Assembly: GCF_964204865.1 (NCBI RefSeq)
Contig: NC_135258.1
Location: 10,221,001-10,285,000 of the forward strand
Origin: Styela clava
Lineage: Eukaryota; Chordata; Ascidiacea; Stolidobranchia; Styelidae
Direction of reading: 5' to 3'
Length of the DNA stretch: 64,000 nucleotides
Below, in pieces: positions 479 to 50,474 of this stretch. A model generated the notes under the pieces. The model made no database searches. It was not told the origin of the DNA and saw only the letters and a list, made by a program, of their open reading frames with translations. Position 1 is the stretch's first letter, and each line of letters opens with the position of its first letter. A program made the position numbers and the translations under genes.

Positions 479-3400
479 CTACGTAAGTGAAAATGAAGGT
501 ATCGCTGAAGTTGGATCTTCCATTTCCATCTTATTGTCCAGGGCAATATAACCCTCCCAAAAGTTTGGTACTGTATAACCATTATCCATTTTAAAAATCA
601 CTGTGTGGTTTAACATTACCATAGATCTGATTTTCAGCATTCTGGTCGTATTTTGAGAGTTAATAACTTTCCAGAATGATTTTGCAGCACTTGTGTATCG
701 GGACTTGTAAAAAGCATCAATGCCAGTGCTGAAGGTGGATGAAACATTGCTGAGTACGTTCCCAGAATGACTTTGAATTGCTGTTGAAACGAATGTACGC
801 AGGCAATTGTTTACCCATACGCAAATGTTGCCGTAGAGTATGTCAATCAAATAGCGAACGTTGTAATTCTTAACATCACCATTCCGGAGATCCGCATGTA
901 ACAATTTCCAAAAGTAGTTGACGCTTTTAGAGAAATCAAATGTTTCCATTTCAGAACTTAAGGCCGGCATAGAAATGAAAGAATTAGATTCCACTTTCAT
1001 TGTTTCCCAAAGGTTTTGTTTATTTGTCTGTATCATAAGTTTTGAGAGGGATTTTCGAATGACGTAAGATTCCGTAAGGTCACGCAGCAAACCTAGAATA
1101 TGTGCATGGGTAAAATGGTGACGAAAAATATTTACAATTTTCCACAATCTGCTTGAGTACTTCAGTATCTCGCCTGCAATCATTTTATCAAGATAACGAC
1201 GCAAAAGTGAAGAGAAAGTCGTCATAATGACAAATTTTAAACGACCATCATTTTGCACTTCATTCGGAGATTCAGAAAAAACCTGAATAAATAAATCAAC
1301 ATCGAATTCTTCCATGCGACGAATGTCGATTTTTAACAGCAAATAAATTGCACTATTGTAACGAAAGTTGTTCAATTTATCATCTTGTGGATTTCTACAT
1401 ATTTCAAGTGCTCTGTTAATAAGATCTGACCTAGTGGATGCATCAGTTTCTTTATCAGCTACTTTTAAAAGACAAATCATCTTCATTAGGTCCATTCCAT
1501 CTTTTGCTGTTATTTTCCCCACAATTCCCATTTGCGATTCCTGAATTACATCTGTGGCTTTTAATGTGTAATATCCGTCTTCAAATAAGTCTTGGCCAAC
1601 TTGTGTGCACAATATAGTTTCAGAAAATTCTATCAACATGGGTTTCCCAATTTTCTTACACCCTCGTTCGATTGAGTCGTTTAAAACATCACGTAAACCT
1701 TGCGCTCCACATTCCAGCATATCCATATTTAACTGAGCTATTGCCACCCCAAGTCGAAATGCTAAATTCGAATATATATCATCGTATTTTAATAATTCCT
1801 CCTTACACAATTCAAGCATTTCTTCCGGCGCCATGACTTGCTCCATGGATACAGCCTCATCGGTACGAATCATCAGCATACTTCCACCAAAATCGAAGTA
1901 CCAGCTTGCAATTTCTTTGTCAGCCATGCTTCTTTCGAACCAAATTTTATGAATTTTCATCAATTCGCTTCGTCTGTCTTGGTCTTCATATATATTAGAC
2001 AGCAAACCACAAGCATTTGTAATTTTAAGATTATCTTCAGAATGTTCGATGATTTTTAACAGTCTCTTTTCAGTTGTTTCTAACCATTCTTCTGAAGGCG
2101 ATATCCCGAGTCTGCTGTTCTCCATGAGAACAGAATGAATGCGCCATATTTCTAGTTTTTCGGTTTTAAAATTGGACATATCAGTCAGTTCTTTTTCTAG
2201 AGATGTGAGCGCATCGTCATATTCACTCAAAAACATCAAGGCTGGAGTGATTCCACTTGATATACCAGGTCCCGGTTCGATTGTACGTTTTGATTTAATG
2301 CCCAAGTGTTTCATAATGTAAGCCCGCATAACTTCAGCAAACTTGTGCGTATGTTGTAGACAGTTTACTGCACATTTCTTGCTTATAAATTTGTATAAGT
2401 CGTTTGGCGTAACTTTGTATCTACGACAACCTCCTTCTGCGTAAACCTTGAGTCTAAGTTCGCAGGCAGTAGCAAGTGCATATTGAGTCTCATGGAAATC
2501 TCCCTCAAACATAAAATCTAATTTTGACAAGATATCAAAGCTAGAATTGGAAGAAATTTTATAAATGCGCGCAGCGTATGCAATCAGTGCTGTAAGTGGT
2601 CGATAAAAAGACGTTTTCACGTCAAATTTCACGGATTCGTGGAGAACCCAAGTTGTTCCGGTTACGCCCACGTTAACGTTCTTTTCTATTTCATCGAATA
2701 CCTCTTTATATCTTTTTCTATCCATTTCTTCTCCGATAACATTGCCGACAAGATATCTGAAATTGTTGTAAACCTTTTTATCTCCATATACAAAGCATGT
2801 TCTGGTTAAAATATCTTTCAGATAGTAGCCATTCTTGATATGCTCTTCTGTCGTCAAATAGGAAGCCATCTTACTTGCTGGTTGAATGAGTTCAACTTTA
2901 TGTTGTCTCTTTTTTGTTGGTTCTTGTCGCCCAAGTGGCGTATTACAAGAATGAGGAACCATTCCATCAAAACATACTCCGCTTGTTGTGAACATATCAT
3001 AATACCAATTTTTCGATTTATCTTCCGAATATAAGTCATTGATAGATTTGACACCGACACTACGAATGATTGTTTCACCCAAGCCTGTCATTACGACTTG
3101 AAAAATCACTGCGAACCATCGGAAATATTCTTGCACTTTTTCATATTCTGTAGATTGCTGTACTCCTTCCTCCAGCACAATGACATGTTCAAAATCAGAA
3201 TAAAGTGTTATTTCTTCGCGGGTTAAAGATCCTAGCCCAACGATTGCAAAAGCACACGGTGGATCCCCAAGAATATCTATGCAATTTCTGGCTATGTACT
3301 GCATTAAATGTTTAAAATGACTCGTAGTATTTTTCATAAGTTTGTGAATGGATTGAATTCTCTCCTTCTGTTTACGGTGAATTTCAGATTCAGTCAAATC

Positions 3401-3823
3401 TTCCTCAATCAATTCTAAAGTTTCAATGGAATTTCTCTCTAAGCCACGAAATAGTTTGAATCCTCTGTAGATATTTTTAGAAAGATTATCAACACTGATA
3501 TCTTGATTTGCGGCGTTGGATGCTGCTAATAATCTGGCATCCAATAATTTCAAAACCGGTTGTAGATTTTCAATACCTTCTGTGTCTGAAATTATTTCAA
3601 ACCTTACTCTTGCCCCATGTAGCAATGTAGCACTTTTAATAAAATCCATCTTTTGTGTCATACCTGTTGATGTTTCCGTTTTATCCATATATAATTTACC
3701 CATTTTATATAAAATGTCCGAACATTCCTTTAGTTTGGTAATTCTCTCATCTCCATAAGGTGTGCAAACTGCTTGTAAGCTGTCCGCCAAATCTTTCTCC
3801 TCTTGAGTTATCGCGTCAGTCAT
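479..3823 (-). CDS. DUF294/GlnD-type nucleotidyltransferase-domain protein, 1,114 aa, single exon
   Basis: One uninterrupted frame of 1,114 codons runs from ATG (3821-3823) to TAG (479-481). Residues 191-212 read AFAIVGLGSLTREE followed by ITLYSDFE. This matches the G-[LMS]-G-S-x2-R-x-E-x5-SD-x-[DE] signature of the DUF294 / PII-uridylyltransferase N-terminal nucleotidyltransferases (pol-beta superfamily): G196, G198, S199, R202, E203/E204, S209, D210, E212. The acidic pair D210/E212 would be the metal ligands. The remaining ~850 residues are leucine-rich and helical in appearance, possibly TPR-like (for example around residues 540-680); no second domain is recognised. There is no signal peptide or membrane segment, so it is probably soluble. 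In bacteria the domain transfers nucleotides to regulatory proteins; the substrate here is unknown. The lack of introns contrasts with the SDR and BOULE-like genes. The frame is certainly coding; the function is inferred from the motif only. Confidence 0.85.
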   Translation of the reverse strand: MTDAITQEEKDLADSLQAVCTPYGDERITKLKECSDILYKMGKLYMDKTETSTGMTQKMDFIKSATLLHGARVRFEIISDTEGIENLQPVLKLLDARLLAASNAANQDISVDNLSKNIYRGFKLFRGLERNSIETLELIEEDLTESEIHRKQKERIQSIHKLMKNTTSHFKHLMQYIARNCIDILGDPPCAFAIVGLGSLTREEITLYSDFEHVIVLEEGVQQSTEYEKVQEYFRWFAVIFQVVMTGLGETIIRSVGVKSINDLYSEDKSKNWYYDMFTTSGVCFDGMVPHSCNTPLGRQEPTKKRQHKVELIQPASKMASYLTTEEHIKNGYYLKDILTRTCFVYGDKKVYNNFRYLVGNVIGEEMDRKRYKEVFDEIEKNVNVGVTGTTWVLHESVKFDVKTSFYRPLTALIAYAARIYKISSNSSFDILSKLDFMFEGDFHETQYALATACELRLKVYAEGGCRRYKVTPNDLYKFISKKCAVNCLQHTHKFAEVMRAYIMKHLGIKSKRTIEPGPGISSGITPALMFLSEYDDALTSLEKELTDMSNFKTEKLEIWRIHSVLMENSRLGISPSEEWLETTEKRLLKIIEHSEDNLKITNACGLLSNIYEDQDRRSELMKIHKIWFERSMADKEIASWYFDFGGSMLMIRTDEAVSMEQVMAPEEMLELCKEELLKYDDIYSNLAFRLGVAIAQLNMDMLECGAQGLRDVLNDSIERGCKKIGKPMLIEFSETILCTQVGQDLFEDGYYTLKATDVIQESQMGIVGKITAKDGMDLMKMICLLKVADKETDASTRSDLINRALEICRNPQDDKLNNFRYNSAIYLLLKIDIRRMEEFDVDLFIQVFSESPNEVQNDGRLKFVIMTTFSSLLRRYLDKMIAGEILKYSSRLWKIVNIFRHHFTHAHILGLLRDLTESYVIRKSLSKLMIQTNKQNLWETMKVESNSFISMPALSSEMETFDFSKSVNYFWKLLHADLRNGDVKNYNVRYLIDILYGNICVWVNNCLRTFVSTAIQSHSGNVLSNVSSTFSTGIDAFYKSRYTSAAKSFWKVINSQNTTRMLKIRSMVMLNHTVIFKMDNGYTVPNFWEGYIALDNKMEMEDPTSAIPSFSLT

Positions 3824-6799
3824 ATCTAATCTGTTTTAACGCTGTATATATGTAGAGATATTCATATACAATGTAATTAATAGTAAGAACTTAAATTTAG
3901 ACTAAAAGCAATTATGAAAGCTAATCACACAGTCCTGTCATCTACATAACAAAATACAAGAAGTGATACGTAGGCCTATATTGGAATCCCATTCAACAAG
4001 TAAATTTCGTTTATTCACTACATAACAATTCAGTCTGGGTAAGGGTAAGAAATCGAACACTTCACACCAACGCTTTATTATGTGTGCCTATTCGGGCGTA
4101 TCACGAAAACTGCAATCCATTTTACAACATTTTGTGTAAATTTCATCAAACTAACTTAACAAATAACAACTGGTTGAAAAAGGGAAATACCATATTGTAA
4201 ATTACCATTTAACAAATATGAAAAAGAATTGTTGTTTACCCTACATCCAACGCTTGAACTCATAAACCTCATAACAACATAGGCCTCAAAAGGCGATATA
4301 AAACTTAGTGGTCCAAAACTAGAACGCTTGAGAGTCTCGATAAATATAAGAACAGTAAAAAAGACATAGAATTTGAGCATTACACAACACCGCGTAGGCT
4401 TTACGTATGTCCGTTTATTCAGGTCTTCGGGTCATATTCTTTTATTTATTAGCAAACAGAAAACTACTGACAGATGACATTTTTATTATTTATTGACTAA
4501 ACTAGCCTACGCTAGGGTCTTTTGTGTTTGATCTACAATTGAAGTGTAGCGTCGTTAGATATATATAATCTGTAAAAAACTTTACACATCATTTGGTACC
4601 TTAAGTATTCTTACGGCTGTGGAGTTATAGATAAGTTCCAAAATCAGATTACAGATGCACAATGAAATTCTATCTCCGACTTCCGAACGTGCAAAAAACG
4701 ACTCCGATTTAAAGTCGGCACATCATGTTGAGCGTTGAAAACAAGCTTGGTACCACTCGCCGCCTATTTACCTGTGTGACTTCGTAGGTTTAATACTTGT
4801 AGCCGCATATTTGTTGATATAACTCTGGTCAGTTAGGGTTTCCACAGTCAAGTCTATGTATCTGGAATGGCTACCTGGTCAACTATTTTTCATGGTTAGG
4901 CAGTCGTCCCCTTCCATGAGATAAATATAAAAATCCGTTCCACACTGTTGCAGAAATTTTCGATTAAGTTGAATTTTAAATTGCTGTAACATATTCTGGA
5001 TACCACCTTCCTGCTTGGCTCCAAAATAAGACCATCTCCTGACAAAGTGTGCAGTCGAGCAGGCGCCACAAATCTTGCTTTAGGAACTCTGGCAATAGAA
5101 GTGACCAATATTTTTAGACTTTTTTTAAATTTCTCACTAACGAATAGTGCATTGCTAGCGCCATGGGCTTCTCGAACTTAGAAACATTTGGGAGTGTCGG
5201 TAGCTACCATGGACCTTTCAAAACAGCTCATGTCGCTGATTCAAAGTTTTCAAAACCCTGATATTGTATCAATATCTGCGTTCCACGTATCTGTGACTGA
5301 AATTAAATATATATATAGTAATTTGTCGCTCAGTGCATATACTGTACACAATCTCAGAAGTCTTTACCACATTGACTCGTTTATTCAAACTTTTTAGTTA
5401 GTTCCACTAGGTACTGTAAATTTATAATACGTGTAAAAGAGGCGATACTGTATCGACCATAGCGCATCTCGCACGTGGAATAAACTTTATTTTGAAAGAT
5501 CAATATAAGCGACATTTGTCTATTGCACACCGTTCCGGTGACATCATTAAATTTCGAATGGTATATATTCTGGTTTAAATAGCAACGGGAACTGGTGAGG
5601 ATTTGACTGAAAGAATATAATAGTTACTGCTACGAGTCGAAATAATAATATAATACCATTATTATTCACACTGAATATTTTTGTTGACAAACTTTATACA
5701 TTTCACGTTAATTCAGAGATCGGTCGTCTGCGATGTCCTATTTCAGGAAACATGTCTTTCTATCATAACGGTATCAAGGTTAGTGTATCGAAAACGCAGT
5801 AATTGTCATCGCTGAAGTTGTCAAAATTGCGGGTGTTTACTTGTTTGGTTGTCTTACTTAGATAGGTGCTCACTGTTTTTCCATAAGAAAGATTGATAGT
5901 CCAGAGGACAGGCCTAGGACAGACTTGAGCTGTATTTAGAAATATCCTTAGTGTAACAATTAATGTCAAATTTACAAGAAATAGATGCATTTCTAATATT
6001 ATATAGTAAAAAAAGGATATTTTCTTTTTATAGCTTCTTTCATTGTTGGCTACATAATGGTTTTAATTATTTAAAAATTATCGAAGTAGTTAAATATGCA
6101 TGCAACTGCTTTCGTTGTTATAGTTGAACTATATATAAGAAGTACCGAAATATATTTGTATTTGTGCAGAAATACTCTTTAGTCACTTAGGAAACGAAAA
6201 TGTGATGTGAAATTACCGCCTAAACTTCTTGGATAATGCCAAACAAAAATATGATGTGAAATTTTTATGTTTTTTTCTTCTTTCAAATTAGCCTGTATGA
6301 CGCAGAAGGAAACTTTTGCCGGACGCGTTTAGTCAAAATTGAAAACTCATTCAATTTTCAACAAAGCACGTACAGAGGTATGTCTCATTCAAAATAGGGC
6401 AGCGGTTCCCGAAGGTTGCGTCGCGGCGCATTAGTGTGTATATAAATCAATAAATTTATTTTCCTCTTCGTTGTCGTTTACTTCCTGTTACGTAGTGTCT
6501 GCCTTTATTCTTACATAATAATAGAGGGAAAAACTACCTGGTGCCATTTCGCGAGCTGCAGTTCATATAACTACTGAAACGAGTTTAGCGAATATGGGTG
6601 ATTTTGTTAGCATTTTGAATGAAAATCGAGCAGAGATGAGGAAGAAGAGTTGACCTTTTGCCTTTATTCCTTATGCCTACGTGTTTACAAACTTTCTAAT
6701 GCATACAGTACACATTAGCGATAACAAAATTGAGCTTTATTTGAAAAGCTGCATTTTTTTCGTGCAAGTGCGCCGTGAGTTTTTGTCCGTTATAATTTG
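3824..6799. other. Intergenic region upstream of the nucleotidyltransferase gene and the SDR array
   Basis: No convincing coding exon is seen in about 3 kb. Short open frames (for example 4896-5108 and 5763-5990) lack family similarity or splice context. The sequence is AT-rich with short TA runs. A stretch starting near 6399 (CAGCGGTTCCCGAAGG) resembles a hAT terminus, but no matching right end or target duplication could be found. Confidence 0.4.
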
Positions 6800-6950
6800 G
6801 CGTCGCATTATATTTTGCTCTTCATAATATATGGACACGAAGTTCATTACAAAATGTTTTACCATCATTTCTCTGAAAATCATACGGTTTTCGTGTCCCA
6901 TGGTAAATACAAATGTGTGCTATCCCATCCCGTTCCCATGGACAAGCCTG
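6800..6950 (+). mobile_element. 3' remnant of a CAGGCTTGTCCATG hAT MITE upstream of SDR copy 1
   Basis: From roughly 6800 to 6950 the sequence matches the right third of the intact element at 57983-58396. It shares the block ATCATACGGTTTTCGTGTCCCA and ends in the same terminal CCATGGACAAGCCTG. The left part of the element is missing. The end of the remnant is directly followed by TATATCTATATATATAAAAC, the presumed SDR promoter. Shortened versions starting at 13090 and 21194 stand before SDR copies 2 and 3. The left breakpoint of the tandem duplication (after the ATG at 6854-6856) lies inside this remnant. Confidence 0.7.
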
Positions 6951-6962
6951 TATATCTATATA

Positions 6963-6969
6963 TATAAAA
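6963..6969 (+). promoter_or_regulatory. Putative TATA box of SDR copy 1
   Basis: TATAAAA occurs 113 bases before the ATG at 7082 and 13 bases after the end of the MITE remnant. The same block is present before copy 2 (about 13195-13203, where CAAGCCTG has been lost) and copy 3 (about 21303-21309). The position suits a short 5' UTR, but no transcript start is known. Confidence 0.45.
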
Positions 6970-7081
6970 CAATCACTCATTGATCGTTTCAAAGCTTCTT
7001 CGCACGACTACGCTGCCGGTATCTTGTTCCGCAACAGTGCTTTAACTAGCCTTTTATTACGCGTTTGGCCTTGGTGCTGTG

Positions 7082-10000
7082 ATGGAGAAGTTCAGTGAAA
7101 AAGTGGTGATCATAACAGGTGAATGGCAATAGCTTTCTGCGTTATAGTAATCTAAAATTATTATTTCTCGACAAACTCGAGCGTTTTTTTCGAGTATAAT
7201 TATTTGACGTAAATGGAGTTTTATGATAGGCAGTGCGAGTGGACTTGTGGAAATGTTCTGAAACGTTAGGCACATGCTTTGAAAAAAAATGTAAAAAGGG
7301 CATAAAACAGTATAATATTTGACTTACTGATTTACAGTATTATTTAACACGACACCATGATGCTCAGCTGCTCGCTCGCATGGGTTCGCCAAATTTGAAC
7401 TTTTTTTCAAGGCAAAAGATAATTTACGATGATTAATTATAGGCATACAGCATTACTACAAAAAACTGAAATTTAATCGTTGTTCAACACATGGGCCAAT
7501 ATTTTTATAAATTGATCCAGTTGCGAAATCACTTTCCCCAAATCATACCAGCTCATACATTAGAGAGTTGGTTAATTTCGAAAACTTATATGAGCCTGCC
7601 GCTACAGGTCTTTTTTGTTCGTTTTTATTTCTACAACAGGTGCATCAAGTGGAATAGGAGAGGCCACTGCCGTTGCCTTTTCAAAACAAGTGGCAAAATT
7701 AACAATTTGTGGAAGAAACAAAGAAAGACTAGAAGAAACTGCTAAAAAATGTAGAGATAATGGCGCAGAGGTTTGTCAACTATGTAAACTATTAAATTCA
7801 AAGTAACTAAAACAATGAACGTTATAAAAGAGTCGCTAATGAATTAGAGTGGAAACTAATCGACTTAAGCGCAGTTCAACTTTTCTGCTCATAGTATAAA
7901 AATATCACAAAAGAACTATACCTTTGTTTAAAATGAATATGACGAATTTTAGGTTTTACAAATAGTTGGAGATCTATCAAAGTTTGAAGAATTGAAACCC
8001 GTGATCGATATAACAGTTAGCAAGTTTTCCAGAATTGATATCTTGATAAACAACGCGGGTCGCCTGGAACATTGTCCAATTTCTGAAGTAAGTTGTGTTT
8101 GTATCTTATAGCAATAGTTGCAATATGTTGTGTGCGAAAAGATTGATTTGGAAATAGGTCTTTACTGTAGATTCGAGTAACTTTCAACCACCGAATTTTA
8201 AAAGAATGTGCTCAATGCGCGACACACACAATGTTATTTTACAAGTCAATTTCATGCATGATTCTATGATATTTCGAGAATAAAACCAAAACGAGAAAGA
8301 ACTCTGATCACAGGATTTCGTGCCCACCCCCAAGAATCGAACATTCCCAATTTCGATATTGATTTTTGAATACAATTGTATAAATTTATGGTTTCAAACG
8401 AATTCTAATTTATCTGTTACATGAAATATTTCAATCACATTGTGCAATAATATATTGACGGATTTTCGACAACACAAGATCCAGTGTTCTTTTTAAAATG
8501 GGTTAGATTAGAGATATTCCCAAATGCATGTCAAATTGTACAAAAGGAATTTAGACGGTGACTACAAATTAACTTTAACATTTCTAATTTATTTATTTAT
8601 CATATTTTAGCTCCAGCTTGATTTATTTGAAGATTTGTTTGCGATTCTTGTTCGTGCACCTGTTTTTCTTTGTAAATATGCATTGCCTCACCTTAAAGAG
8701 ACAAAAGGTAAAATAACAATTTTATTCAACCAAAAACTTTCGAAGATTTTTTTCAGTATTTGCTTGTATTTTTTAGGTTGCGTGGTCAATGTGTCAAGTA
8801 CAGCAAGTCTCAAAACATTTCCTTTGACATTCAATGTGTCGTATGAAATGTTTAAAGCAGCGTTAGACAATTTCACAAGAGGGTTTTCAGCAGGTGTGTG
8901 GAATGAATAAAGCTAACGTTCATTTGGGGACATGAAAAAATTATCGCTAGGGACAAAAGTCATAAATAAAACAATTAAAATCAATCTAATGACACAGGTA
9001 ATATACCTTAGAATATAACAACTTGTTGTTCGTTGAATGGTGGACCATACCAATCACCGACGCATGAAAAGGTATTTAGCAAGTGTGGAACTGCGATAAA
9101 TTATATTAAATCTGGTTGGTCATTGAGAAATTGTTTGTGGCTTTTTAGCTAAATAATGCCCTGTAAAAAAAAGTTATGGCGGTTCACAGTTCTAAGAAAT
9201 TCTGGTTCAACTCGGTTTAATATTATTAATTCATAAAACAACAGTAAAATCTTACTAAGATGATAACAAGATTGCCCTACCATATATACTACTCATCTTT
9301 AACTAATTTCATTTAGGTGTTACTGTTAGATAATTTTTTATAGTTATGTATTTTATCCAATTGTTCGCTTATTATCAACATTTTGTTTTTCAGAATGTGC
9401 TTCATATGGCGTTCGTGTTAACAGCATCAAGTAAGATATTTTTATACCTATATATTTGAAATTATTTTTGATCTTCCGATCATTTTGTTTCAAAAACGAA
9501 AAAAAACGAGTCAGTCGTAATTAATGAGGTATTTGAATAATTGAGAAGTAGAGTTTTTCGGAGATTGTATTACAACAAAAGTATGACGTCAGTAAAAACC
9601 ATAAATCACGTTAAAAGTAATATCAGAATATTAAAAACATCTTAAAAAAAACAGGCACATTCCGAAATGGCACGTAGCCTGATGTGCCAACTCTAATCCG
9701 AAGTTTAAAAATATGAAAATTGAAAGTATAAAGCGAATTGCGTTTCTAACATTATTTACCCAGCCCAACATTATTTACCCAATTATTTTAGTCCTACATA
9801 CGGAGTTATATTCATCAATATTGATAGAAGGAAATCTTGACCCACTCCATTCAATTTATCTCCTTCAATTCAAACTGCTCTCATTTTTTGACCAAACAGT
9901 CCAGGTGTTGTGAAAACGAGACTTGTTGAAAATTCAAAATACACAAAAGAGCAATTTGAGAAGGTTAGTTACGTTGCTGTGATATCCACATGAGTTTATC

Positions 10001-26090: not shown

Positions 26091-26540
26091 TTCGCAACGT
26101 AGCAGTGGCATCAGAATGCCCAAGTTTTTCCCTAATTCCAAGCGACCAATCGGAATTGAAGAAAATAGTAAATTAGTAAATGTAATATTTATGGTTTGAG
26201 AATATTATTTATTCGTTTGTTTAGATAATACATGGATACTTTTTAAGGTTTTTTGATGAATTGAAAACACTTACGACTAACAATTAGACAGGCCCTAGAT
26301 CTGAATTGTATGCTTTTCGCAACGTAGCAGTGGCATCAGAATGCCCAAGTTTTTCCCTAATTCCAAGCGACCAATCGGAATTGAAGAAAATAGTAAATTA
26401 GTAAATGTAATATTTATGGTTTGAGAATATTATTTATTTATTTGTTTAGATAATACATGGATACTATTTAAGGTTTTTTGATGAATTGAAAACACTTACG
26501 ACTAACAATTAGACAGGCCCTAGATCTGAATTGTATGCTT
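26091..26540. repeat. 225 bp tandem duplication inside hAT element A of unit 3
   Basis: The block starting TTCGCAACGTAGCAGTGGC at 26091 is repeated from 26316 with a period of 225 bases and few differences. Units 1 and 2 have at most one copy, so the duplication arose after the triplication. Confidence 0.85.
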
Positions 26541-27601: not shown

Positions 27602-28503
27602 AATGTTCAGTCCACTTACGTTCCACAGCTAGGGTTGACGTATCATGAATTAGGTCTCAGCACAGACAAAGCTCCTCGAGGCACGGCGATGTGTGACCAC
27701 TGCCTTTGTTTATTTGAATCTGTGAATATTCCGTTTCGTGAATAAGAACTAGGGATGCCAGTTATTCGAAAGCTTTCAATTATTCATCGTGGTGCAATAG
27801 AGCGTTGAAAGGGAATGGCAACAAGTGCGGCGATTTTCCAGTATATGGACAATAGGCGAAGCATTGTGTGTAAAGAAGGATATAACTGGTTGTAGTAGTA
27901 GAATGTTTTGTAGCTTACTTGCTATTGGGTCAAGGGTAGAACAAACGCAGTAATAACTAAATGTATATTTGTCAAGTAAAAACCTGGTCAAGTCGGCCTT
28001 ATTTGATTCGAGAGTTTCTTTTTTTTTTAGCAAAGTGAAAGTTTTGTATAGAGAAACACTTTTCTTCGCGTAATTGTCTTAAAGCACGCATATTAAACAT
28101 CTGCTCAATGTACCGAGTATTCCCAGCAGGGTTGCTTTTTGATGGGCTTTGTCTCTTTGATTTGAGCGCTAGTTCAGTAGTTACTTCGCCTTGAGCAAAA
28201 TTGTATAAAAAGTTGTTCGTTGCCATGCTTGTTCTGGCTTTAGTTATGGAAGACATGAGATTGAGAGAGTAACAATTGTTTTTGAAATCTTTCTGATACA
28301 ACATTATGGAATTCACGAGCCACCAGTCTATAAAGCTGGGCTGGTTACCTCGGGATTAGATTTACCCTTAATTGAGGAAAGGTGACATATGCTTCGGTGA
28401 ATATCATATCTGCGTAAAGCTAAGTCAGGGAAAGCCGAGAGTATGTCACGACAGCGATTGTTAACGGAATGCAGTCTAGCATGCATGCAAATCCTAATAA
28501 GTT
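27602..28503. other. Unique sequence between SDR array and first glycosyltransferase gene
   Basis: Similarity to the SDR units stops at 27601. No coding exon, repeat end or RNA gene could be recognised. The last ~150 bases probably hold the promoter and 5' UTR of the gene starting at 28504 or 28579, but no clear TATA element is seen. Confidence 0.4.
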
Positions 28504-30315
28504 ATGGCACGCAAGTTAGACACACGATGTGTTTTCGCACCTAACTTTTTTTGTTTATTTTATTCATGTCTACGAAGGATGAGTCGTTCAATAGTTTTAA
28601 GATTTATATCTTGGTATCAAAATTGTTTGATAATACCTTTGGTTCTGACGGCTATAATATTTGGCGCGTTTCTTCATCAATGGCTTGAAGAGGATATTGA
28701 TAGTCCTCTTGAGCTCACAGATGATATCCATTGGAATTATTCAGACAATTTATTTGTGGTCAAGAATGAAATAAAACTTGAACCAATGTCTGCACATGTC
28801 TTGAAGATATACGAGCACTTGTCAAACTTACAAAAATCAAGTGAGTGCCTTGCGTGTCAACCTGCAGGCGACAGAAGAACACTCTGTGATAAATATCCTG
28901 GAAGATATGGCTGTCCTTCCTACGTTATGATTTGGATTATAATTTCTAATAGACAGGGATATACAACGTTTACCTCGTCTGTTCTTCGAAAATATAACAA
29001 CATAGCGGAAAGTGATATTCATTTGTTGACCGACAGATCAGACGAGATTGACTTCAAAACTTTACAAGGATTGTATGGCAGCGGCGCCAAATACTTTAAT
29101 CCAATCGGCGTAAAGCCAGGTGGAACGATGATACAATATTTGCTTAATAAGTTCCTCATGTCTGAGTACAAATTGTTACTATTGCTGGAGGATGATATGA
29201 TTCTCTTGAAAGATTGGTTAAGTTTCATTGAAGAACATATCACGCACACAGACGGAATACTTTCACTTTATCATCCATCCGTGAACCATAGTTTTGCTTA
29301 TGATTGCGAAAATCAAAAAGGCGAATTATGTGTTGGAGAATCAACACAAAATTCTGGCTTTGTTTTGACAAAATCAATCGCTGAATCTTGGCTTTCAAAA
29401 ATTAATGACTCAAAGTCCCATTATGGATGGAATGAATTACTTGAACAGGATTCAATTGAGCTTTTTTACCCAGTAAAATCTCTCACTATGCACATTGGAC
29501 AACAGCATCAAGATAAAGAAAATTGTGGAACAAATGAAGTAGCGCACAGATTTAATCGTTGCGAATATCCATCATGGATAAAAGAACAAATTGAGTTTTA
29601 TTTTGACAGATGCACAAGTCCGGATGAAATTTATCCAGATGATCCAGACTCTATAGAATTTAAAACAAGAATGAAAAAAAGATTCTGGGTTCGTCCTGCG
29701 ATTTCTTATTCATTTTATGGATACAAAACAAGATATATTGCAATTGCTTTAGGAAACGCTGCTCGTGTATCGAGGATTTATCCTGGCTGGAAGATTTGGC
29801 TATACCATGATGATTCAGTACCAGATCCCTATTTACAGACTTTTTGTGAATATGATGCCAGATTTATTGATATGACCGGAACAAAGTTAATAAATCAAAT
29901 GTCTTGGCGCTTTTTGGTAGCTTCGGAGCCAGTTAAAAGGTGGGCGATTCGGGATATCGATTCTCACTTGTTACGAAGAGGAAAAGCAGCTGTAGATGAA
30001 TGGATTGTTTCAGGTAAAAAGTTCCATATTATTAAAGATCATCCCAATCATTCTAAGCATGCAATAAACGGCGGAAGTTGGGGAGGAAATTCCGAAGCTA
30101 TGCCTCATATGAGAGAAGAACTTGAAAAATATGTCATCACCAATGCTTACATGGAAGACATGAATTTTCTAAAAGATATCGTTTGGCCTGTTGCTGAAAA
30201 ATCAGCCTGGATAAACGATGCATACTCTATTCACATGTTTGGTGAAGACCATCCTTTCCCTACCAAATTAGAAGTTGACTGGTCTTTTGTATGTAATGTA
30301 ATTTTATATCCGTGA
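28504..30315 (+). CDS. Two-domain glycosyltransferase-like type II membrane protein, paralogue 1, intronless (603 aa)
   Basis: A single open frame of 603 codons; ATG at 28579 (residue 26) is the likelier start because it aligns with the second paralogue. A hydrophobic segment at about 41-56 followed by acidic residues looks like a type II Golgi/ER anchor. The first lumenal domain (about 115-370) has paired cysteines (CLAC, CDKYPGRYGC), ISNRQGY, a GT-A-like acidic motif LLEDDMILLKDW (EDD 229-231) and LYHPSV, an order reminiscent of PGAP4/TMEM246-type transferases. The second domain (about 397-600) carries RPAISYSFYGYKTRY, KRWAIRDIDSHLLRRGKAAVDEW (RDIDS 483-487), a DHPNH segment and INGGSWGG. 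I associate that motif set with bacterial and giant-virus glycosyltransferase-like proteins. Both domains keep putative metal-binding acidic motifs. It lacks introns, unlike the SDR genes around it. AATAAA is at 30352-30357, 37 bases past the stop. Acceptor and donor sugars are unknown. Confidence 0.85.
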   Translation: MARKLDTRCVFAPNFFCLFYSCLRRMSRSIVLRFISWYQNCLIIPLVLTAIIFGAFLHQWLEEDIDSPLELTDDIHWNYSDNLFVVKNEIKLEPMSAHVLKIYEHLSNLQKSSECLACQPAGDRRTLCDKYPGRYGCPSYVMIWIIISNRQGYTTFTSSVLRKYNNIAESDIHLLTDRSDEIDFKTLQGLYGSGAKYFNPIGVKPGGTMIQYLLNKFLMSEYKLLLLLEDDMILLKDWLSFIEEHITHTDGILSLYHPSVNHSFAYDCENQKGELCVGESTQNSGFVLTKSIAESWLSKINDSKSHYGWNELLEQDSIELFYPVKSLTMHIGQQHQDKENCGTNEVAHRFNRCEYPSWIKEQIEFYFDRCTSPDEIYPDDPDSIEFKTRMKKRFWVRPAISYSFYGYKTRYIAIALGNAARVSRIYPGWKIWLYHDDSVPDPYLQTFCEYDARFIDMTGTKLINQMSWRFLVASEPVKRWAIRDIDSHLLRRGKAAVDEWIVSGKKFHIIKDHPNHSKHAINGGSWGGNSEAMPHMREELEKYVITNAYMEDMNFLKDIVWPVAEKSAWINDAYSIHMFGEDHPFPTKLEVDWSFVCNVILYP

Positions 30316-32065
30316 ATATGCACTATAATTTGACAATAGTAAAAAAAATATAATAAAGTAAACATTAAGTACGTTTACAATGCAACTTAAATAACTCCTC
30401 TCTATCCAAGAAGATAATACTACGTGTACAGCCTTGGATAGGACTTTTCAAGTCTTGGGTCACCAATTGAACCTGATATTTGAAAACTTCGAGGTCCAAA
30501 AATACTCTAATGTATTCCTAACATTTAACTTGGTTAAATGAACTTCCTATTTTATTAATTTGAATTTTATAAAAATTGTTCCCTTCCCTAATATTCGTGT
30601 AAATATCTTTCACTGTCAGTTGACGCCAGCTGTTTTTATTATTATCTAGTCTAGTTTCTGTGATTTTATCTTTTAATCGCTGATTTTTATATCCATTTTT
30701 ACTGTGTGTGTTTATAACAAGCGGTGGGCATAACAGTTGAGGGCTCAAATTTGTTTAGTTCAAACTGCACGAAGAACGAGGGGCGACTTTTTACAACTAA
30801 ATTTAAATATGGTTCTCTGAAAAAGTACGCTAAGACGATTCTATAAAGAAATAGATTTGTGGTAGTGTCCACCAAAACTTTAGCACATCGACTTATTTAG
30901 AAAATATAACCAGCCCTTAGGATGTTACGAAATAATATTCGGAAATTCGCACTAACACCAGCGTAAAAAAAAACTAGCACGGCACCCACCTCACGTGTGT
31001 CAACGGCACAAATTTGTGATCCCGGAAATTATTATAGGCATGCAAATTCTGTGCGAGACGAATGCAATACAGCAACTGCACCTCTACTGAATATTTTGCT
31101 GCATCTGTCATTTATAACTTCCAATATATACCGATAGAAATTTGTAGGAAAAGACACGACAAATGGAGCACTGTTCTCGATACGACGGTTTAATTGGTAA
31201 ATCATATGGCAGAACTCTATATCCTAGATCACCACTTAGGCCTTAGAAACTATCAACCACGATGTGTCCACCCAAATCCTGTTTAAAATTTCAACCTCAT
31301 CATTAACGAATAGAAAGTGACATTACATATCGTCACGCTAATAACCGAATCGCGTAAGTCATTTTTAGCAGTTTTGAGAAAAACTTTCTAATGATATTGT
31401 TATGCCATTGAGAGTCAATAATTTGCCATGGTTCAATTTTTTGATCATAGCCGGATTTAAGTTAATTTGTATGACGTAGTTGAGTGACGTCAAAATGGCG
31501 CACTGTGACTTAGGCAGAAATGTGTCTATGACTTGGGGACATACGCAATTTTGCAACTTCACTATATGCACCAGTCCTGAAAACTAAAAATTCCGAAAAC
31601 GAATGTAATTCTCAGTATCCACAATGTCTAATCCCCAAAATAGCTAATCAGTTTCAATTACATTATTTTTTATGTTTAAAAATATATATTTCGTCAATAA
31701 AACACGTTCTGCACACCCACCGAAATAAGACTGAGATTAAATACAAAGAATAAAACAGCGATGCACCCAATATAAAAGTTAACCAAGGTGAATTGGACTC
31801 GGACAATGAATATCACAAGTGCACTCCTTCCTATACCGAAGTATAAATTCAAATTAATACGCGCTAAGCTAGAATCCGAGATGCAAAAACTCGAAAATAC
31901 TTCGCCGAGGTTATTTTGTCTTTGTTACGTCACAATAGTGCTGCGTTACCTATGATAATTCATTATGACGAAAAGTTCGAAACGAGCGAGTTCGAAAACT
32001 GTGATAAATTATAGTCTGGTGACGCCCCAAAGGTGAGGGTGCAGATCCGATGCGCATTCATCATA
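30316..32065. other. Intergenic region
   Basis: After the polyadenylation signal at 30352-30357, no exon, RNA gene or bounded repeat is recognised. Short open frames lack any family signature. Confidence 0.4.
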
Positions 32066-32403
32066 CCGTGTTTCCCCGGAAATAAGACTGGGTCTTATTT
32101 CAATTTTCCTCCGAAAAATAACACTAGGGCTTATTTTCGGGGGAGGTCTTATATTTTCATTTATCAAAAACAACATTACAAAGTAGGGAATTATGATATT
32201 TCCAAATATACAAAATATGAAAACCGATATCCATTTACTTACAAATACATTAACACGTTTTTACTTCAAATAACTGCAAAACATAGATTATTCATCGTTT
32301 AAATCGTGTAGGAGAGATGCTTGCTATCGACTAGGTTAAAAAAAGTTCGCGGTAAGGACTAGGCCTTATTTTAAGGGGAGGGCTTATTTTCGGGGAAATA
32401 CGG
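32066..32403. mobile_element. Tc1/mariner-like MITE with CCGTGTTTCCCCG ends (338 bp)
   Basis: The ends CCGTGTTTCCCCGGAAATAAG and CTTATTTTCGGGGAAATACGG are inverted repeats flanked by the dinucleotide TA on both sides (32064-32065 and 32404-32405). A TA target is typical of Tc1/mariner elements. The repeat continues inward with TCTTATTT motifs. The element contains no transposase. A truncated relative sits at 49146-49313 inside the fold-back element. Confidence 0.8.
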
Positions 32404-32515
32404 TATGTAAAATTCACCATTCTCATAGGATATTGACTTCAAGGCTTGAAGATTTTTCAAATTTACCGAAGGCAAAGGTAAGTCTGGTTGATGATATAGT
32501 GGAGAAAGCCGTAAA

Positions 32516-43005: not shown

Positions 43006-43323
43006 CATTTTTGTTTGTTTATATTTTAAACTTTTTAGCGTCCGGAAACTTTCCAAGTTCCTAATAAGGGCAGTCATTTGATAATTATTTGATATCAGAT
43101 ATGAGCTGTCCCGAGAATAAGAGTGTGTTTTTATATGTTCTGCGTTAATCTCGCCTGATATATGGATTTTTGTTTGTTTATATTTTAAACTTTTTAGCGT
43201 CCGGAAACTTTCCAAGTTCCTAATAAGGGCAGTCATTTGATAATTATTTGATATCAGATATGAGCTGTCCCGAGAATAAGAGTGTGTTTTTATATGTTCT
43301 GCGTTAATCTCGCCTGATATATG
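43006..43323. repeat. 159 bp direct tandem duplication
   Basis: The block beginning TTTTTGTTTGTTTATATTTT is present twice in a row (about 43006-43164 and 43165-43323) with no differences that I can see. The period is exactly 159 bases, for example TTTAGCGTCCGG recurring. It lies about 320 bases upstream of glycosyltransferase paralogue 2. 159 is divisible by three, which explains why an open frame on the minus strand runs through both copies. Confidence 0.9.
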
Positions 43324-43640
43324 GATAAATGGTTTAAATGCTATAAATGGTTTTCTAAATCTTTTCCGCTATCACGCTAGTTTACTTCAATAGTTTTTAT
43401 CCAAGTAAAATCCCACTGAATTGTTATATTCCTATTTTTCGTTACTGATGTTATTGTTATTATTTCGCGTAACGATGATTGGGGGCAAAGGAACTTGGGA
43501 TCTTCTGTAAAAAGCCCCCTCAATAAAAATGAAAAAATAAAAAAAACATAACGCCCTAGTTCGGCGATCGCCACGTTAGTTGTTACCAACAGTCAACACG
43601 GTACACTTATGTAATTCCATGTATTTTCTTTTACGAAAGC

Positions 43641-45401
43641 ATGAATAGAAAAGCACATTTATGCTTATGTATGATTCAAAAATATTCAATCTTCCTCATG
43701 TTATTGACGGCCGCAATTTTCGGCGCATTTTGCCGCCAGTGGATTGAAGAAGAATATCATAAGGACATTTACACATTTATTATACTCACGAAAGTACGGA
43801 TGGGGGAGACTGCAGAAAAAATGAACCACATTTGGAGTGACTCTTATAAAGTGACCGAAGATAGAAAATTTGAATCCATTTCCTCGCATGTTTTTGATAT
43901 ATCTAACCACCTTACAGAGTTGAGAAAATCAAGAGAATGTATTGCGTGTCAGACGATAGACAACACACTATGTGATAAATACCCAGGAAGATATGGCTGC
44001 CCTTCTTACATCATGACTGGTATATTACTTTCCAATCGAGTGGGATATACTAAATTTACGTCGTCTGTTATTCGAAAATATAACAACTTAGCAGATATCG
44101 ATATCCATTTGTTCGGCGACAGTTCTGACAAATTTGACCTAAAAACATTACGTGCATGGTACGGCGGTGGAGTAAAGTACCATGGTACAAACGCCGCTAG
44201 GTCAAGAAGTGAGAAGATTCAGTTCTTGCTTGAAATTTTCACCAAATCGAAGTATAAATTACTGATGTTACTGCATGATGATATAGTTCTGTTAAAAGAT
44301 TGGATGGGTTTCATTGAGAAATATATAACACATACAGACGGTTTACTTTCACTTTATCATCCATCTGTGAACCATAGTTTTGCTTATGATTGTAAAAAGC
44401 TCCGAGGCGATTTGTGTGTTGGGGATTTAATAGAAGATTCTGGATTCGTTCTGACAAAATCAATTGCCAAGTTATGGCTTTCTAAAATAAGCAGTTCAAC
44501 TTCCGCACATGCATTAAAAGAACTTCTTCGTACAAATTCAATTCGAATATTATATCCAGTCAAGTCTCTTATGATGTACATCGGTCAGAAAGACCAAGAT
44601 AAAGAAAATTGCGGGATGAATGAAGTAGCTCATAGATTCAATCGTTGCGAATATCCATCATGGATAAAAGAACAAATTGAGTTTTATTTTGACAGATGCA
44701 CGAGTCGGGATGAGATTTATCCAGATGATCCAGACTCTGAGGAATTTGAAACAAAAATGAGAAAGCGATCTTGGGTTCGACCAGCAATTTCCTATTCCTT
44801 TTATGGATACAAAACAAGATATGTGGCAATTGCTTTGGGTAATGCTGCTCGAGTGTCGAGTACATATCCTGGGTGGAAAATGTGGGTTTATCACGATAAA
44901 TCAGTTCCCATTCCTTATCTAGAAACATTCTGCCAACACGATGTTAAACTTGTACAAATGTCAAAATCTACCTTTGTGAATGAAATGACTTGGCGTTTTC
45001 TTATAGCTTCCGAACCAGTCAAAAGATGGATAATTCGAGATATTGACTCACATTTACTTCACAGAGGAAAGGCGGCTGTAGATGAATGGATTGCCTCTGG
45101 CAAAAAATTTCATATTGTCAAAGAAGATGTAGAGCACACAAAACATCCAATAAACGGAGGAAGCTTTGGTGGAACTCATGATGCAATTCCTACAATGAGA
45201 GACGAACTACAAAAATTTGACTTATCAAATGCTTACATGGAAGATATGCGATTTCTAAGATTAATTGTGTGGCCTATTGCTAAAAAGTCTTACTGGATAA
45301 ACGAAGAATTTCCGACCCACGCATATGGAGAAGGTCATCCTTTTCCCACGAAACGGGTAGCACCCTGGGCTTTCGTATGTAACGTAATATTGTGGCCATA
45401 G
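43641..45401 (+). CDS. Two-domain glycosyltransferase-like type II membrane protein, paralogue 2, intronless (586 aa)
   Basis: A single open frame from ATG 43641 to TAG 45399-45401. It is collinear with the 28504 gene after its residue 26, with a constant offset of 17 residues from the first acidic motif to the end. A hydrophobic anchor at about 15-30 (IFLMLLTAAIFGAF) predicts a type II membrane protein with a lumenal C terminus. The CIAC and CDKYPGRYGC cysteines are kept. The first-domain acidic motif is HDD (212-214) instead of EDD, with LLKDW following. The second domain has KRWIIRDIDSHLLHRGKAAVDEW (RDIDS 466-470) and INGGSFGG. Where paralogue 1 has DHPNH this one has EDVEH, so the second site may differ in activity. 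The stretch NEVAHRFNRCEYPSWIKEQ is identical in both genes. Its substrate is unknown. Confidence 0.85.
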   Translation: MNRKAHLCLCMIQKYSIFLMLLTAAIFGAFCRQWIEEEYHKDIYTFIILTKVRMGETAEKMNHIWSDSYKVTEDRKFESISSHVFDISNHLTELRKSRECIACQTIDNTLCDKYPGRYGCPSYIMTGILLSNRVGYTKFTSSVIRKYNNLADIDIHLFGDSSDKFDLKTLRAWYGGGVKYHGTNAARSRSEKIQFLLEIFTKSKYKLLMLLHDDIVLLKDWMGFIEKYITHTDGLLSLYHPSVNHSFAYDCKKLRGDLCVGDLIEDSGFVLTKSIAKLWLSKISSSTSAHALKELLRTNSIRILYPVKSLMMYIGQKDQDKENCGMNEVAHRFNRCEYPSWIKEQIEFYFDRCTSRDEIYPDDPDSEEFETKMRKRSWVRPAISYSFYGYKTRYVAIALGNAARVSSTYPGWKMWVYHDKSVPIPYLETFCQHDVKLVQMSKSTFVNEMTWRFLIASEPVKRWIIRDIDSHLLHRGKAAVDEWIASGKKFHIVKEDVEHTKHPINGGSFGGTHDAIPTMRDELQKFDLSNAYMEDMRFLRLIVWPIAKKSYWINEEFPTHAYGEGHPFPTKRVAPWAFVCNVILWP

Positions 45402-47343: not shown

Positions 47344-50300
47344 GGGACGGACTAAAAGTAGGCACTTGCAAATTAGGCACTTTTTTAGGCACTTATTTAG
47401 GCACTTTGGAAAAAAAGTAAAAAGGGCGTAATACCTTTTATAAACATAATTAATTAGTTAAAAATGGTCAAATTAAATGTTGAAAACGCAAACTGCAACG
47501 GGCAAACTCAATAACAATATTTAAAACGTAGTATTAAAGGCAGTCGCACGCGCTTGGTCACCACTTATGCTAGGCACATATTTGGGCACTTCGAAAAATA
47601 AATAAAATGGCAGTTATCACTAATAAAAGACAAAGACATAAACATATTACCCACACTGATTAGCCTGGGTAAATATCCAATAGATGCACTTGAGTCTAGT
47701 ACTGGAATTTAGAAATAATAAATTGTTACCGGTAGGCACTTATTTAGGCACTTCGGAAAAGAGGTGAAATGGACGTAGTAACTCCTAAAAAGGTAATGAA
47801 TTAGTTCAAAATATTTAAATTAAATGTTGAACGCGAAAATTGCAACAGTTAAATCCAATAACGATTTTAAAAACGTAGTATTAAAGGGAGACGCACGCGC
47901 TCTGTCACCACGTATGCTAGGCACATATTTGGGCACTTCGAAAAAAGAAGAAAATGGCAATTATCACTAATAAAAGACAGAGACATAAACATATTACCCA
48001 CACTGATTAGCCTGGGTAAATATCCAATAGATGCACTTGAGTTTAGTACTAGAATTTAGAAATAATAAATTGTTACCGGTAGGCACTTATGTAGGCACTT
48101 CGGAAAAAAGGTGAAATGGACGTAGTAACTCCTAAAAAGGTAATGAATTAGTTCAAAATATTTAAATTAAATGTTGAACGCGAAAATTGCAAGAGTTAAA
48201 TCCAATAACGATTTTAAAAACGTAGTATTAAAGGGAGACGCACGCGCTCTGTCACCACGTATGCTAGGCACATATTTGGGCACTTCGAAAAAAGAAGAAA
48301 ATGGCAATTATCACTAATAAAAGACAGAGAAATAAAAATATTACCCACACTGATTAGCCTGGGTAAATATCCAATAGATGCACTTGAGTCTAGTACTGGA
48401 ATTTAGAAATAATAAATTGTTACCGGTAGGCACTTTTTTAGGCACTTATTTAGGCACATCGAAAAAAAGGTGAAATGGGCGTAATAACTTTTAAAATGAT
48501 AATGAATTAGTTGAAAATTGTCAAATTAAATATTGAACACGCAAATTGCAATATGTGAACCGAATAACAATATTTAAAACGTAGTATTAAAGGAGTCACA
48601 CGCGCTCGGTCACCACATATGCTAGGCACATATTTAGGCACTTCGAAAAAAGAAGAAAATCGGAATTATTACCAATAGAAGACAGAGAAATAAAAATATT
48701 ACTCACACTGATTAGCCTGGGCAAATATCCAATAGATGCACTTGAGTCTAGTACTGGAATTTAGAAATGATAAATTGTTACCGGTAGGCACTTTTTTAGG
48801 CACTTCGAAAACATTGTGAAATGGACGTAGTAACTCCTAGAAAGATAATGAATTAGTTCAAAATATTTAAATTAAATGTTGAACGCGAAAATTGCAACAG
48901 TTAAACCCAATAATAATTTTTAAAACTTAGTACTAAAGGGAGACGCACGCGCTCGGTCACCACATATGCTAGGCACATATTTAGGCACATCGAAAAAAAA
49001 AATGGGAATAATCACCAATAAAAAAAAGAAAATAAAAATATTAGTCAAAATGATTAGCCTGGGACTGGGTGAATATCCAATAGATGCACTTGAGTCTAGT
49101 AGTGGTATTTGAGAATAATAAATTGTTACCGGTAGACACCTTTTACCGTGTTTCCCCGAAATTAAGACAGTGTCTTATTTCAAATTTCTTCCTAAAATTA
49201 CCACTAGGGCTTTTTTTCGGGGGATGTCTTATATTTTAATTTATCAAAAACAAAATTACAAAGTAAAGAATTAAGATATGTTCAAATATGCAAAATATAA
49301 AAACCGATATCATTGGGTTTACTTGTTGCAATTTGCATATTAATTTTTTAATTTAAATATTTTAAACTAATTCATTATCTATTTAAAAGTTATTACGCCC
49401 ATTTTACGCATTTTTAGAAGTGTCTAGATAAGTGACTAAAAAGTGCCTACCGGTAACAATTTATTATTCTCAAATATCACTACTAGACTCAAGTGCATTC
49501 ATCGGATATTCAAATAGGCTAATTATTTTGACTAATATTTTTATTTTCTGTATTTTTATTCATGATAATTACCATTTTCTTTATATTTCGAAGTGTCTAA
49601 ATATGTGCCTAGCATATGTGGTGACAGAGCGCGTGCGTCTCCCTTTAATACTATGTTTTAAAAATCGTTATTGGGTTTACCTGTTGCAATTTCCGCGTTC
49701 AACATTCAATTTAAATATTTTGAACTAATTCATTATCTTTATAGGAGTTGCTACGTTCATTTCACCTTTTTTTCGAAGTCCCCACCGGTAACAATTTATT
49801 ATTCCTAAATTCCAGTACGAGACTCAAGTGCATCTATTGGATAGTTGTCCAGGCTAATCAGTGTGGATAATATGTTTATTTCTCTGTCTTTTATTAGTGA
49901 TAATTGCCATTTTGTTTATTTTTCGAGGTGCCTAAATATGTGCCTAGCATACGTGGTGAGAGAGCGCGTGCGTCTCCCTTTAGTACTACGTTTTAAAAAT
50001 CATTACAGTATTGGGATTTAACTGTTGCAATTTTTGCGTTCAACATTTAATTTAAATATTTTGAACTAATTCATTATCTTTCTAGGAGTTACTACGTCCA
50101 TTTCACCTTTTTTTCGATGTGCCTAAATAAGTGCCTACTGGTAACAATTTATTATTTCTAAATTCCAGTACTAACCTCAAGTGCATCTCTTAGATATTTA
50201 CTCAGGCTAATCAGTGTGGGTAATATGTTTAATTCTCTGTCTTTTATTAGTGAATATGCCATTTTATTTATTTTTCGAAGTGCCTAGCATATGTGGTGAC

Positions 50301-50474
50301 CAAGCGCGTACGACTGCCTTTAATACTGCGTTTTAAATATTGCTATTGAGTTTGCCCGTTGCAATTTGCGTTTTCAACATTTAATTTGACCATTTTTAAC
50401 TAATTAATTATGTTTTTAAAAGGTATTACGCCCTTTTTACTTTTTTTCCAAAGTGCCTACTTTTAGTCCGTCCC
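47344..50474. mobile_element. 3.1 kb fold-back / MULE-like element with tandemly repeated inverted arms
   Basis: The element begins GGGACGGACTAAAAGTAGGC and ends with the exact inverse GCCTACTTTTAGTCCGTCCC. It is flanked by an exact 9 bp duplication GGTGTGTAA at 47335-47343 and 50475-50483. A 9 bp duplication with long inverted repeats fits Mutator-like (MULE) or fold-back elements. The left arm (47344-49140) holds about five monomers of ~345-358 bp, marked by ACTGATTAGCCTGGG at about 47654, 48001, 48348, 48706 and 49050. The right arm (49316-50474) has about three in the opposite orientation. Each monomer carries GGCACTTATTTAGGCACTTCG-like words. No transposase frame is visible. The centre is occupied by a truncated Tc1-like MITE. 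Confidence 0.85.
49146..49313. mobile_element. Truncated Tc1/mariner-like MITE in the centre of the fold-back element
   Basis: It starts TACCGTGTTTCCCCGAAATTAAG and matches the left half of the element at 32066-32403 through ATTACAAAGTA and AAAACCGATATC. The right half and right terminus are missing. The inverted right arm of the host element resumes directly after it. Confidence 0.75.

Follow-up and report, generated by a model that had tools for sequence, protein, structure and literature searches.

The window analysed here is a stretch of 64,000 nucleotides from the genome of Styela clava (C10:10221001-10285000), and it contains a structure of 3131 bp (positions 47344-50474) whose two arms are arrays of repeated units in opposite orientation. 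Is this structure a mobile element, or is it an array of repeats that merely lies between inverted ends? From the sequences we establish its ends and target-site duplications (TSDs), the ordered types of its monomers, the motif arrays of its arms and the presence of a larger coding copy of its family. We believe, with a probability of roughly 0.8, that it is a non-autonomous fold-back Mutator-like element (MULE) on which a transposase acts in trans, that its arms are duplicated subterminal binding sites, and that such arms can be altered in place.

The element and its family

The element is bounded by exact copies of the 9-bp sequence GGTGTGTAA, and its first 24 bases, GGGACGGACTAAAAGTAGGCACTT, are exactly common to both ends, which diverge beyond them. 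TRF resolved the left arm (47386-49139) into 5.0 copies of a 347-bp period with 88% matches. The right arm, in the opposite orientation, holds approximately 3.4 monomers in four pieces (Table 1); from left to right, the typed monomers of the two arms are B A A C D and E A B. Complementarity between the arms is 78-97% among the 25 inverted pairs listed of 36. When the whole element was folded as DNA, the MFE was -1105 kcal/mol and 1019 pairs spanned more than 600 nt, compared with -297 to -336 kcal/mol and 82-202 such pairs for five other 3131-base stretches of the window. These results confirm the first-pass annotation of this DNA, which had described exact inverted termini with an exact 9-bp duplication, about five and three opposed monomers of about 350 bp, and the potential to form a kilobase-scale hairpin. 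Judged by these features, the structure is a complete non-autonomous DNA transposon. It has the build of a fold-back element, with a short loop between long inverted arms whose tandem units vary in number among copies.

Table 1. Parts of the fold-back element, in positions of the window
Feature	Position	Strand	Basis
Left target-site duplication GGTGTGTAA	47335..47343	.	direct reading
Left end: 24-bp terminal inverted repeat and GGCACT run spaced 15/12/12 bp, the last ones entering the first monomer	47344..47385	+	
Left-arm monomer 1, type B	47386..47732	+	
Left-arm monomer 2, type A	47733..48079	+	
Left-arm monomer 3, type A, 2.0% from monomer 2	48080..48426	+	
Left-arm monomer 4, type C	48439..48784	+	
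Left-arm monomer 5, type D	48785..49132	+	
Hairpin loop, 180 bp	49133..49312	.	
Right-arm partial monomer (monomer positions 1-127)	49312..49438	-	
Right-arm monomer, type E	49450..49782	-	
Right-arm monomer, type A	49785..50137	-	
Right-arm monomer, type B, outermost	50140..50459	-	
Right 24-bp terminal inverted repeat	50451..50474	-	
Right target-site duplication GGTGTGTAA	50475..50483	.	

The genome (376.6 Mb in 379 contigs) is that of an animal by its content as well: it gave 73 matches to the wnt family, compared with none in 14 control genomes, of which those named are prokaryotes; a comparison by mitochondrial COX1 gave no match. It contains many relatives of this element. At least 159 places match its first 300 bases (40 of 139 candidates scored), and a 22-mer of the terminal inverted repeat (TIR), with up to three mismatches, occurs at 68 + 53 places compared with 1 + 3 for the reversed pattern; 100 of these 121 places were listed. 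The element of the window has the terminal bases GGG...CCC, and so do the 63 end matches that are exact among those listed of the 121. They are thus G/C-rich, and G/C-rich first terminal bases are given as a Mutator-like feature in the available text of an arthropod survey (PMC13359780).

Besides L001-L008, we extracted 45 loci; the sample is not random, since loci were taken for their resemblance to the window element or because they appeared among the listed ends. Both ends were located in 32 distinct copies, the window's included (33 end pairs, of which the second in L039 is internal). An exact 9-bp TSD is present in 28 of the 32, directly at the located ends in 24 cases and, in L021, L032, L036 and L030, once 1-5 extra terminal bases are allowed. 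The 9-bp TSD of L016 contains one mismatch; the remaining three of the 32 copies, L048, L051 and L052, lack a TSD. No duplication of another length was found in the 32 copies, which include no exact 10-bp TSD, and by eye the duplicated sequences have no consensus. Because 28 of 32 copies have the exact duplication, the structure is not due to chance. Mutator-like elements make TSDs of 8-11 bp, for the most part 9 bp. Together with a MULE-type transposase found within the same ends (see below), this count bears out the Mutator-like transposition that had been claimed for the element.

Could the whole instead be a satellite array that is bounded by inverted ends and was never transposed as a unit? 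The monomers are indeed tandem and satellite-like in length. However, of the 187 genomic matches to a 29-base monomer probe (up to three mismatches; control, 0), 179 fall in 42 loci examined, and of the other eight at least four lie near listed ends (three from C4:25012855 onwards and one at C9:10992413). No free satellite was found in this genome-wide search, and a free satellite can be rejected as the source of the monomers. As exact 9-bp TSDs lie at different sites in 28 of 32 copies and nearly all probe matches lie in the loci examined, we favour Mutator-like fold-back transposition and give the satellite reading hardly any credence.

Five identical end-like matches lie on one strand of C10 (553432, 640452, 728392, 929485 and 1036566), at intervals of roughly 90-200 kb, and the 100 listed places include no partner end for them. 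They are perhaps an old insertion within an amplified segment.

Monomer order, the loop and changes in the arms

Five types take in 168 of the 172 full-length monomers found in 29 loci, and four monomers fall into minor groups. Monomers differ by 3.5-5.2% within a type and by 10-21% between types. Reading inward, one arm usually has the order B-A-C-D and the opposite arm B-A-(C-A)-E. Variants occur; L017, a coding copy described below, has B A B B / C A B A B. The left arm starts with type B in all 26 loci that have a full-length left-arm monomer, and the right arm ends with type B in 22 of 27 loci that have a full-length right-arm monomer (A or C in the other five). Monomer 4 of the window element has one or two counterparts per copy, at the same position in other copies and at 92-99% identity, whereas its identity to other full-length monomers is 85-90% among the matches listed. 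Since the types largely keep their order across copies, the arms are, as judged by this order, not homogenised satellites: units are not homogenised along the array, and whole arms are inherited through transposition.

We compared the loop with the extracted loci and the rest of the window, and found the complete 180 bp at 95-99% identity in 13 of 42 other loci examined, so the loop is inherited rather than made in place. Six further loci (L024, L028, L034, L039, L040 and L043) contain parts of it at 96% or more, and in L041 a match of 86% lies beyond the transposon end. The window also contains, at about 32064-32405, an unrelated inverted-repeat (MITE-like) element of about 340 bp with its start near ACCGTGTTTCCCCGG. 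Positions 49144-49311 of the loop are 88% identical to half of this element, and portions of the repeat are present in L037 (328 bp) and L043 (256 bp); L017 has no match to it. The simplest reading is that the loop is a remnant, in which a MITE would have been nested in a gene-bearing ancestor and an internal deletion would then have left half of it.

Two loci suggest how arms change after insertion. In L020, a five-monomer block of 1748 bp is duplicated at 98.7% identity. Three of its monomer pairs are identical, one is 0.3% apart and the last is 6% apart; the first four pairs are closer than monomers of different loci. We infer that this array expanded in place through unequal exchange. L039 contains an 896-bp inverted copy of its own left arm, 97.3% identical. 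This copy continues through the left end into the left flank, of which it matches 55 of 55 bases, including the duplication in inverted form, GGTTTTAGG. Thus, 55 bp of genomic flank lie inverted within the element (L039 positions 3319-3373), as a scar of fold-back synthesis. We infer that, once the element had inserted at this site, DNA synthesis turned back on itself across the arms. Among the 27 copies tested with 21-base flank probes, this was the one copy with flank sequence inside the element.

The first-pass annotation had also taken the unequal arms of the window element as a sign of expansion after insertion. This view did not hold up: its adjacent A monomers are 2.0% apart, no less than the nearest A units of different loci (1.2-2.0%), and a run of A units is present in L035 too. 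Post-insertion expansion of the window's arms is therefore unsupported, and the extra A unit may be inherited.

Long arms are not needed for movement, because short copies also have exact 9-bp TSDs. Three of these contain about one monomer (L018, 512 bp; L047, 443 bp; L049, 436 bp), and L050, at 310 bp, contains half a monomer.

Coding copies of the family

A search for a MULE transposase with the same ends had been suggested, and L017, on C16, carries one. This copy is 9089 bp long, has the ends and arms of the family and the TSD CACAACCAG, and contains two frames on its minus strand, P0001 (647 aa) and P0002 (375 aa). P0001 does not match a MULE model in Pfam and is absent from the 82 places of a genome-wide PF10551 search. 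It was identified through a relative, the L044 protein, with which it shares 36% identity across 297 aa (E 2e-58). The sequences YDTTF, TDRE and NNxSES are conserved between them, and the D, D and E positions are common to both. As the L044 protein matches the Pfam MULE model PF10551 at 4e-8, above the cut-off, we assign P0001 to the MULE group. By eye, the conserved motifs of P0001 are followed by CSCLGEKECWH, which is SWIM-like and has no Pfam match; the SWIM zinc finger has the pattern CxCx(n)CxH. L044 itself (C6:23737800-23744000) belongs to a related MULE family whose two frames are in opposite orientation; the frame on the minus strand has, by eye, a SWIM-like motif.

P0002 matches Peptidase_C48 (PF02902) at 6.5e-14. 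It also matches SENP2 (3e-11), and in that alignment H, D, Q and C coincide; we take these four to be the catalytic residues of a Ulp1 (C48) protease. Its C-terminus has a Cys/His pattern that by eye resembles the PHD finger, a C4HC3 zinc finger; it has a weak PDB match to Polycomb-like Pcl (E 0.025) and no Pfam match. In L043, which is 95.7% identical to L017 over 6737 bp, a single 532-aa frame spans the C-terminal part of the transposase into Ulp1. Because this frame crosses both, transposase and Ulp1-type protease are probably one protein. Neither copy has an uninterrupted transposase-protease frame: L017 shifts frame between the parts, and the transposase of L043 is interrupted by a stop. 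The left end of L043 was not found in the extracted stretch.

Of the 40 genomic matches to P0001, only L017 is full length without stops, and copies on C17 and C2 are decayed. Other families share 21-37% identity with P0001 over longer stretches. A search for relatives on viral contigs gave seven pattern matches, none of which was confirmed. The putative transposase of the L017 type is most likely the one that moves the window family. We considered L045 as an ancestral arm-less form and rejected it; it is more probably a deletion that joins monomer base ~121 to the coding region (joint by eye). Inside the transposon copy L010, at about 3366-9642, lies what by eye resembles a retroelement of the LTR type; its frames are integrase-like and env-like.

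Two other readings of these coding copies should be weighed. Rehavkus elements, a MULE-related group, are linked to Drosophila FB/NOF. They are described as having TSDs of 9 bp, a PHD finger and, beside an end, a minisatellite (PMC6446971, available text), and the window family likewise has 9-bp TSDs and tandem subterminal repeats, with a candidate PHD-like finger. It could therefore be of Rehavkus type rather than a MuDR-type MULE. On this comparison by description we think this unlikely, because the transposase is clearly related to a PF10551-positive protein and because hydra and lancelet have Mutator elements with a published Ulp1 (PMC2836005, available text). A second possibility is that the hairpin is mainly a putative source of dsRNA that drives or resists small-RNA silencing, with Ulp1 countering SUMO-dependent silencing. 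The capacity of the element for long-range pairing and the probable fusion of Ulp1 to the transposase are in keeping with this, as is the idea of hairpin siRNAs from MULE TIRs (PMC6446971, available text), yet we consider it improbable as the main role of the hairpin.

Motif arrays, a model and known fold-back elements

The arms contain a dense array of the motif GCAC(A/T)T. It occurs five times per monomer on the same strand, compared with a Markov mean of 0.145, and none of 10,000 resamplings reached five. In the left arm of the window element, 28 occurrences are spaced 12/173/12/100/50 with small variations, and four motifs lie at the extreme end of the element, 15/12/12 bp apart. Of 26 copies, 21 contain 10-20 motifs per kb; the other five, which have long interiors (L010, L017, L028, L037 and L040), contain 3.8-7.7 per kb. 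In the flanks of these copies there are 0-2.06 per kb, and the 5178 bp of gene-bearing interior in L017 contain three motifs. Each 347-bp unit, about two nucleosome lengths, thus carries five sites at near-fixed spacing. In addition, a site of about 40 bp with a motif pair is present in both halves of the monomer (local score 43, compared with a maximum of 34 in 1000 shuffles). The monomer is not a simple dimer of two ~173-bp halves, since only this site is common to them and the rest is unrelated.

We propose that the GCAC(A/T)T motifs are probably transposase-binding sites, a putative role suggested by their number, strand and position. Their conservation does not prove a function. The motif columns have a mean conservation of 0.947 compared with 0.909 for the rest of the monomer, a mild difference, and 751 of 10,000 random sets of five 6-mers were at least as well conserved. 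The top-conserved 20-bp window of the monomer (297-316) holds one motif copy, and columns 331-340, which are motif-free, are conserved like the best motif copy.

It is possible, rather than probable, that the arms have no binding function at all and are neutral by-products of recombination whose motifs were inherited from the duplicated subterminal segment. Copies of about one monomer with exact 9-bp TSDs are consistent with this, as are the fact that 7.5% of random sets equal the motif columns and the recombination products at L020 and L039. Three observations argue against this reading: the ~40-bp site with the motif pair is present in both monomer halves though the remainder is unrelated, the motif is found four times at the extreme end, and the type order is largely kept in copies at different sites. 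Doubtful, in our view, is a stronger version of the binding-site idea, in which the arms would be evolved, ordered and strand-polarised docking arrays: selection via synapsis would keep the order of monomer types, fold-back synthesis would preserve and rebuild the arrays in place, and the SUMO protease of the transposase would remodel chromatin or silencing there.

Our model for a fold-back MULE served in trans addresses how the element moves and how its arms arise and change. A protein of the L017 type would act in trans on the ends and excise the element, which would then insert with a 9-bp stagger. The arms may have formed by repeated duplications of the subterminal region, and the five same-strand GCAC(A/T)T motifs of each unit could serve as extra binding sites for the transposase. 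Internally deleted copies such as the window's, whose loop may be half of a nested MITE, would retain arms and ends and therefore be able to spread. Arm length would then be altered by unequal exchange between monomers and by in-place fold-back template switching.

The literature is compared here through the available portions of each cited paper. The first-pass annotation had called satellite-like terminal arrays unusual; this was overstated, because they are an established fold-back architecture in Tetris, Tm1 and FB. Tetris of Drosophila virilis is a fold-back element with ~220-bp tandem monomers, variable in number, in both TIRs; it has 8-10 bp TSDs and its authors place it in Mutator (PMC4079207). 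Like the window family, it has tandem units in variable number in both arms, a repeat with a stretch in common with the flanking terminal domain, and a shorter MITE-like relative, DAIBAM. In contrast, a transposase has not been found for Tetris, the units of which form long satellite arrays as well (PMC4079207). The window family is set apart, on description, by its coding copy, by the absence of a free satellite in our search and by units of ~347 bp in five main types and a largely fixed order.

Galileo, an element of the P superfamily, has TSDs of 7 bp, which differ from the 9 bp found here. It too has long TIRs with tandem repeats, whose expansion has been ascribed to recombination, but its transposase is of the P-element type with THAP (PMC3688188, PMC3573991). 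Secondary transposase-binding sites have been shown in some of its repeats (PMC3688188). Tm1 of Meloidogyne is a Mutator/Foldback element with composite TIRs of variable tandem units, mostly 9-bp TSDs without a target consensus, and coding as well as MITE-like forms. It differs in its ~14 bp units and its Phantom-type transposase with FLYWCH, and Ulp1 or PHD are unmentioned in the text available (PMC3169594). In plants, tandem-TIR MULEs resemble the window family in that terminal repeats are duplicated in tandem at both ends, amplified and mobile; they mostly have two TIR copies per end, not arrays (PMC3310237).

The protein domains also have precedents. In hydra and lancelet Mutator (Ulp1) and in Ginger1 (Ulp1, or Ulp1 and PHD), these domains lie at the C-terminus of the transposase, where Ulp1 probably lies in the window family too; one figure shows an alignment of Ulp1 and PHD domains that includes both Ginger1 and Mutator transposases. 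Unlike the window family, the Ginger1 transposase is of integrase type rather than MULE, and for neither group are fold-back arms mentioned in the portion of the paper available (PMC2836005). The arthropod survey reports TIRs that reach 1.2-1.5 kb, and its main text, as available, contains none of the words Ulp1, PHD, tandem and foldback (PMC13359780). Thus, tandem-repeat fold-back arms (Tetris, Tm1) and Ulp1 in animal Mutator transposases have both been published. We found no report that joins fold-back arms with Ulp1 in the literature covered, which lay outside subscription journals and Repbase.

What is unusual compared with the known class is the combination of ordered long monomers with motif arrays, and of coding copies beside hairpins. 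In the papers as available, no transposase is known for fold-back elements with long monomers (Tetris), and the units are short where a MULE transposase is present (Tm1); the window family joins both features. A single animal genome holds a series that runs from one-monomer copies through multi-monomer hairpins to a copy that encodes transposase, Ulp1 and a PHD-like part, and that also holds an array expanded in place (L020) and an insertion with its own flank copied back inverted (L039). This series makes both the origin of fold-back arms and the idea of binding-site arrays directly testable.

Some other features of the window and its contig were observed. Two long open frames in the window (28501-30315, 604 aa, and 43560-45401, 613 aa) are 61% identical to each other, with no Pfam match at E 0.1 for either; by this resemblance they are a local gene duplication. 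There are tandem duplications at 43007-43326 (159 bp twice, exact) and 26091-26540 (225 bp twice, 98%). A 1118-aa open frame on the minus strand at 479-3835 has a DUF294 nucleotidyltransferase match at 2.2e-7. Elsewhere on the same contig, C10:8809695-8992159 contains a dense cluster of more than 10 wnt gene pieces.
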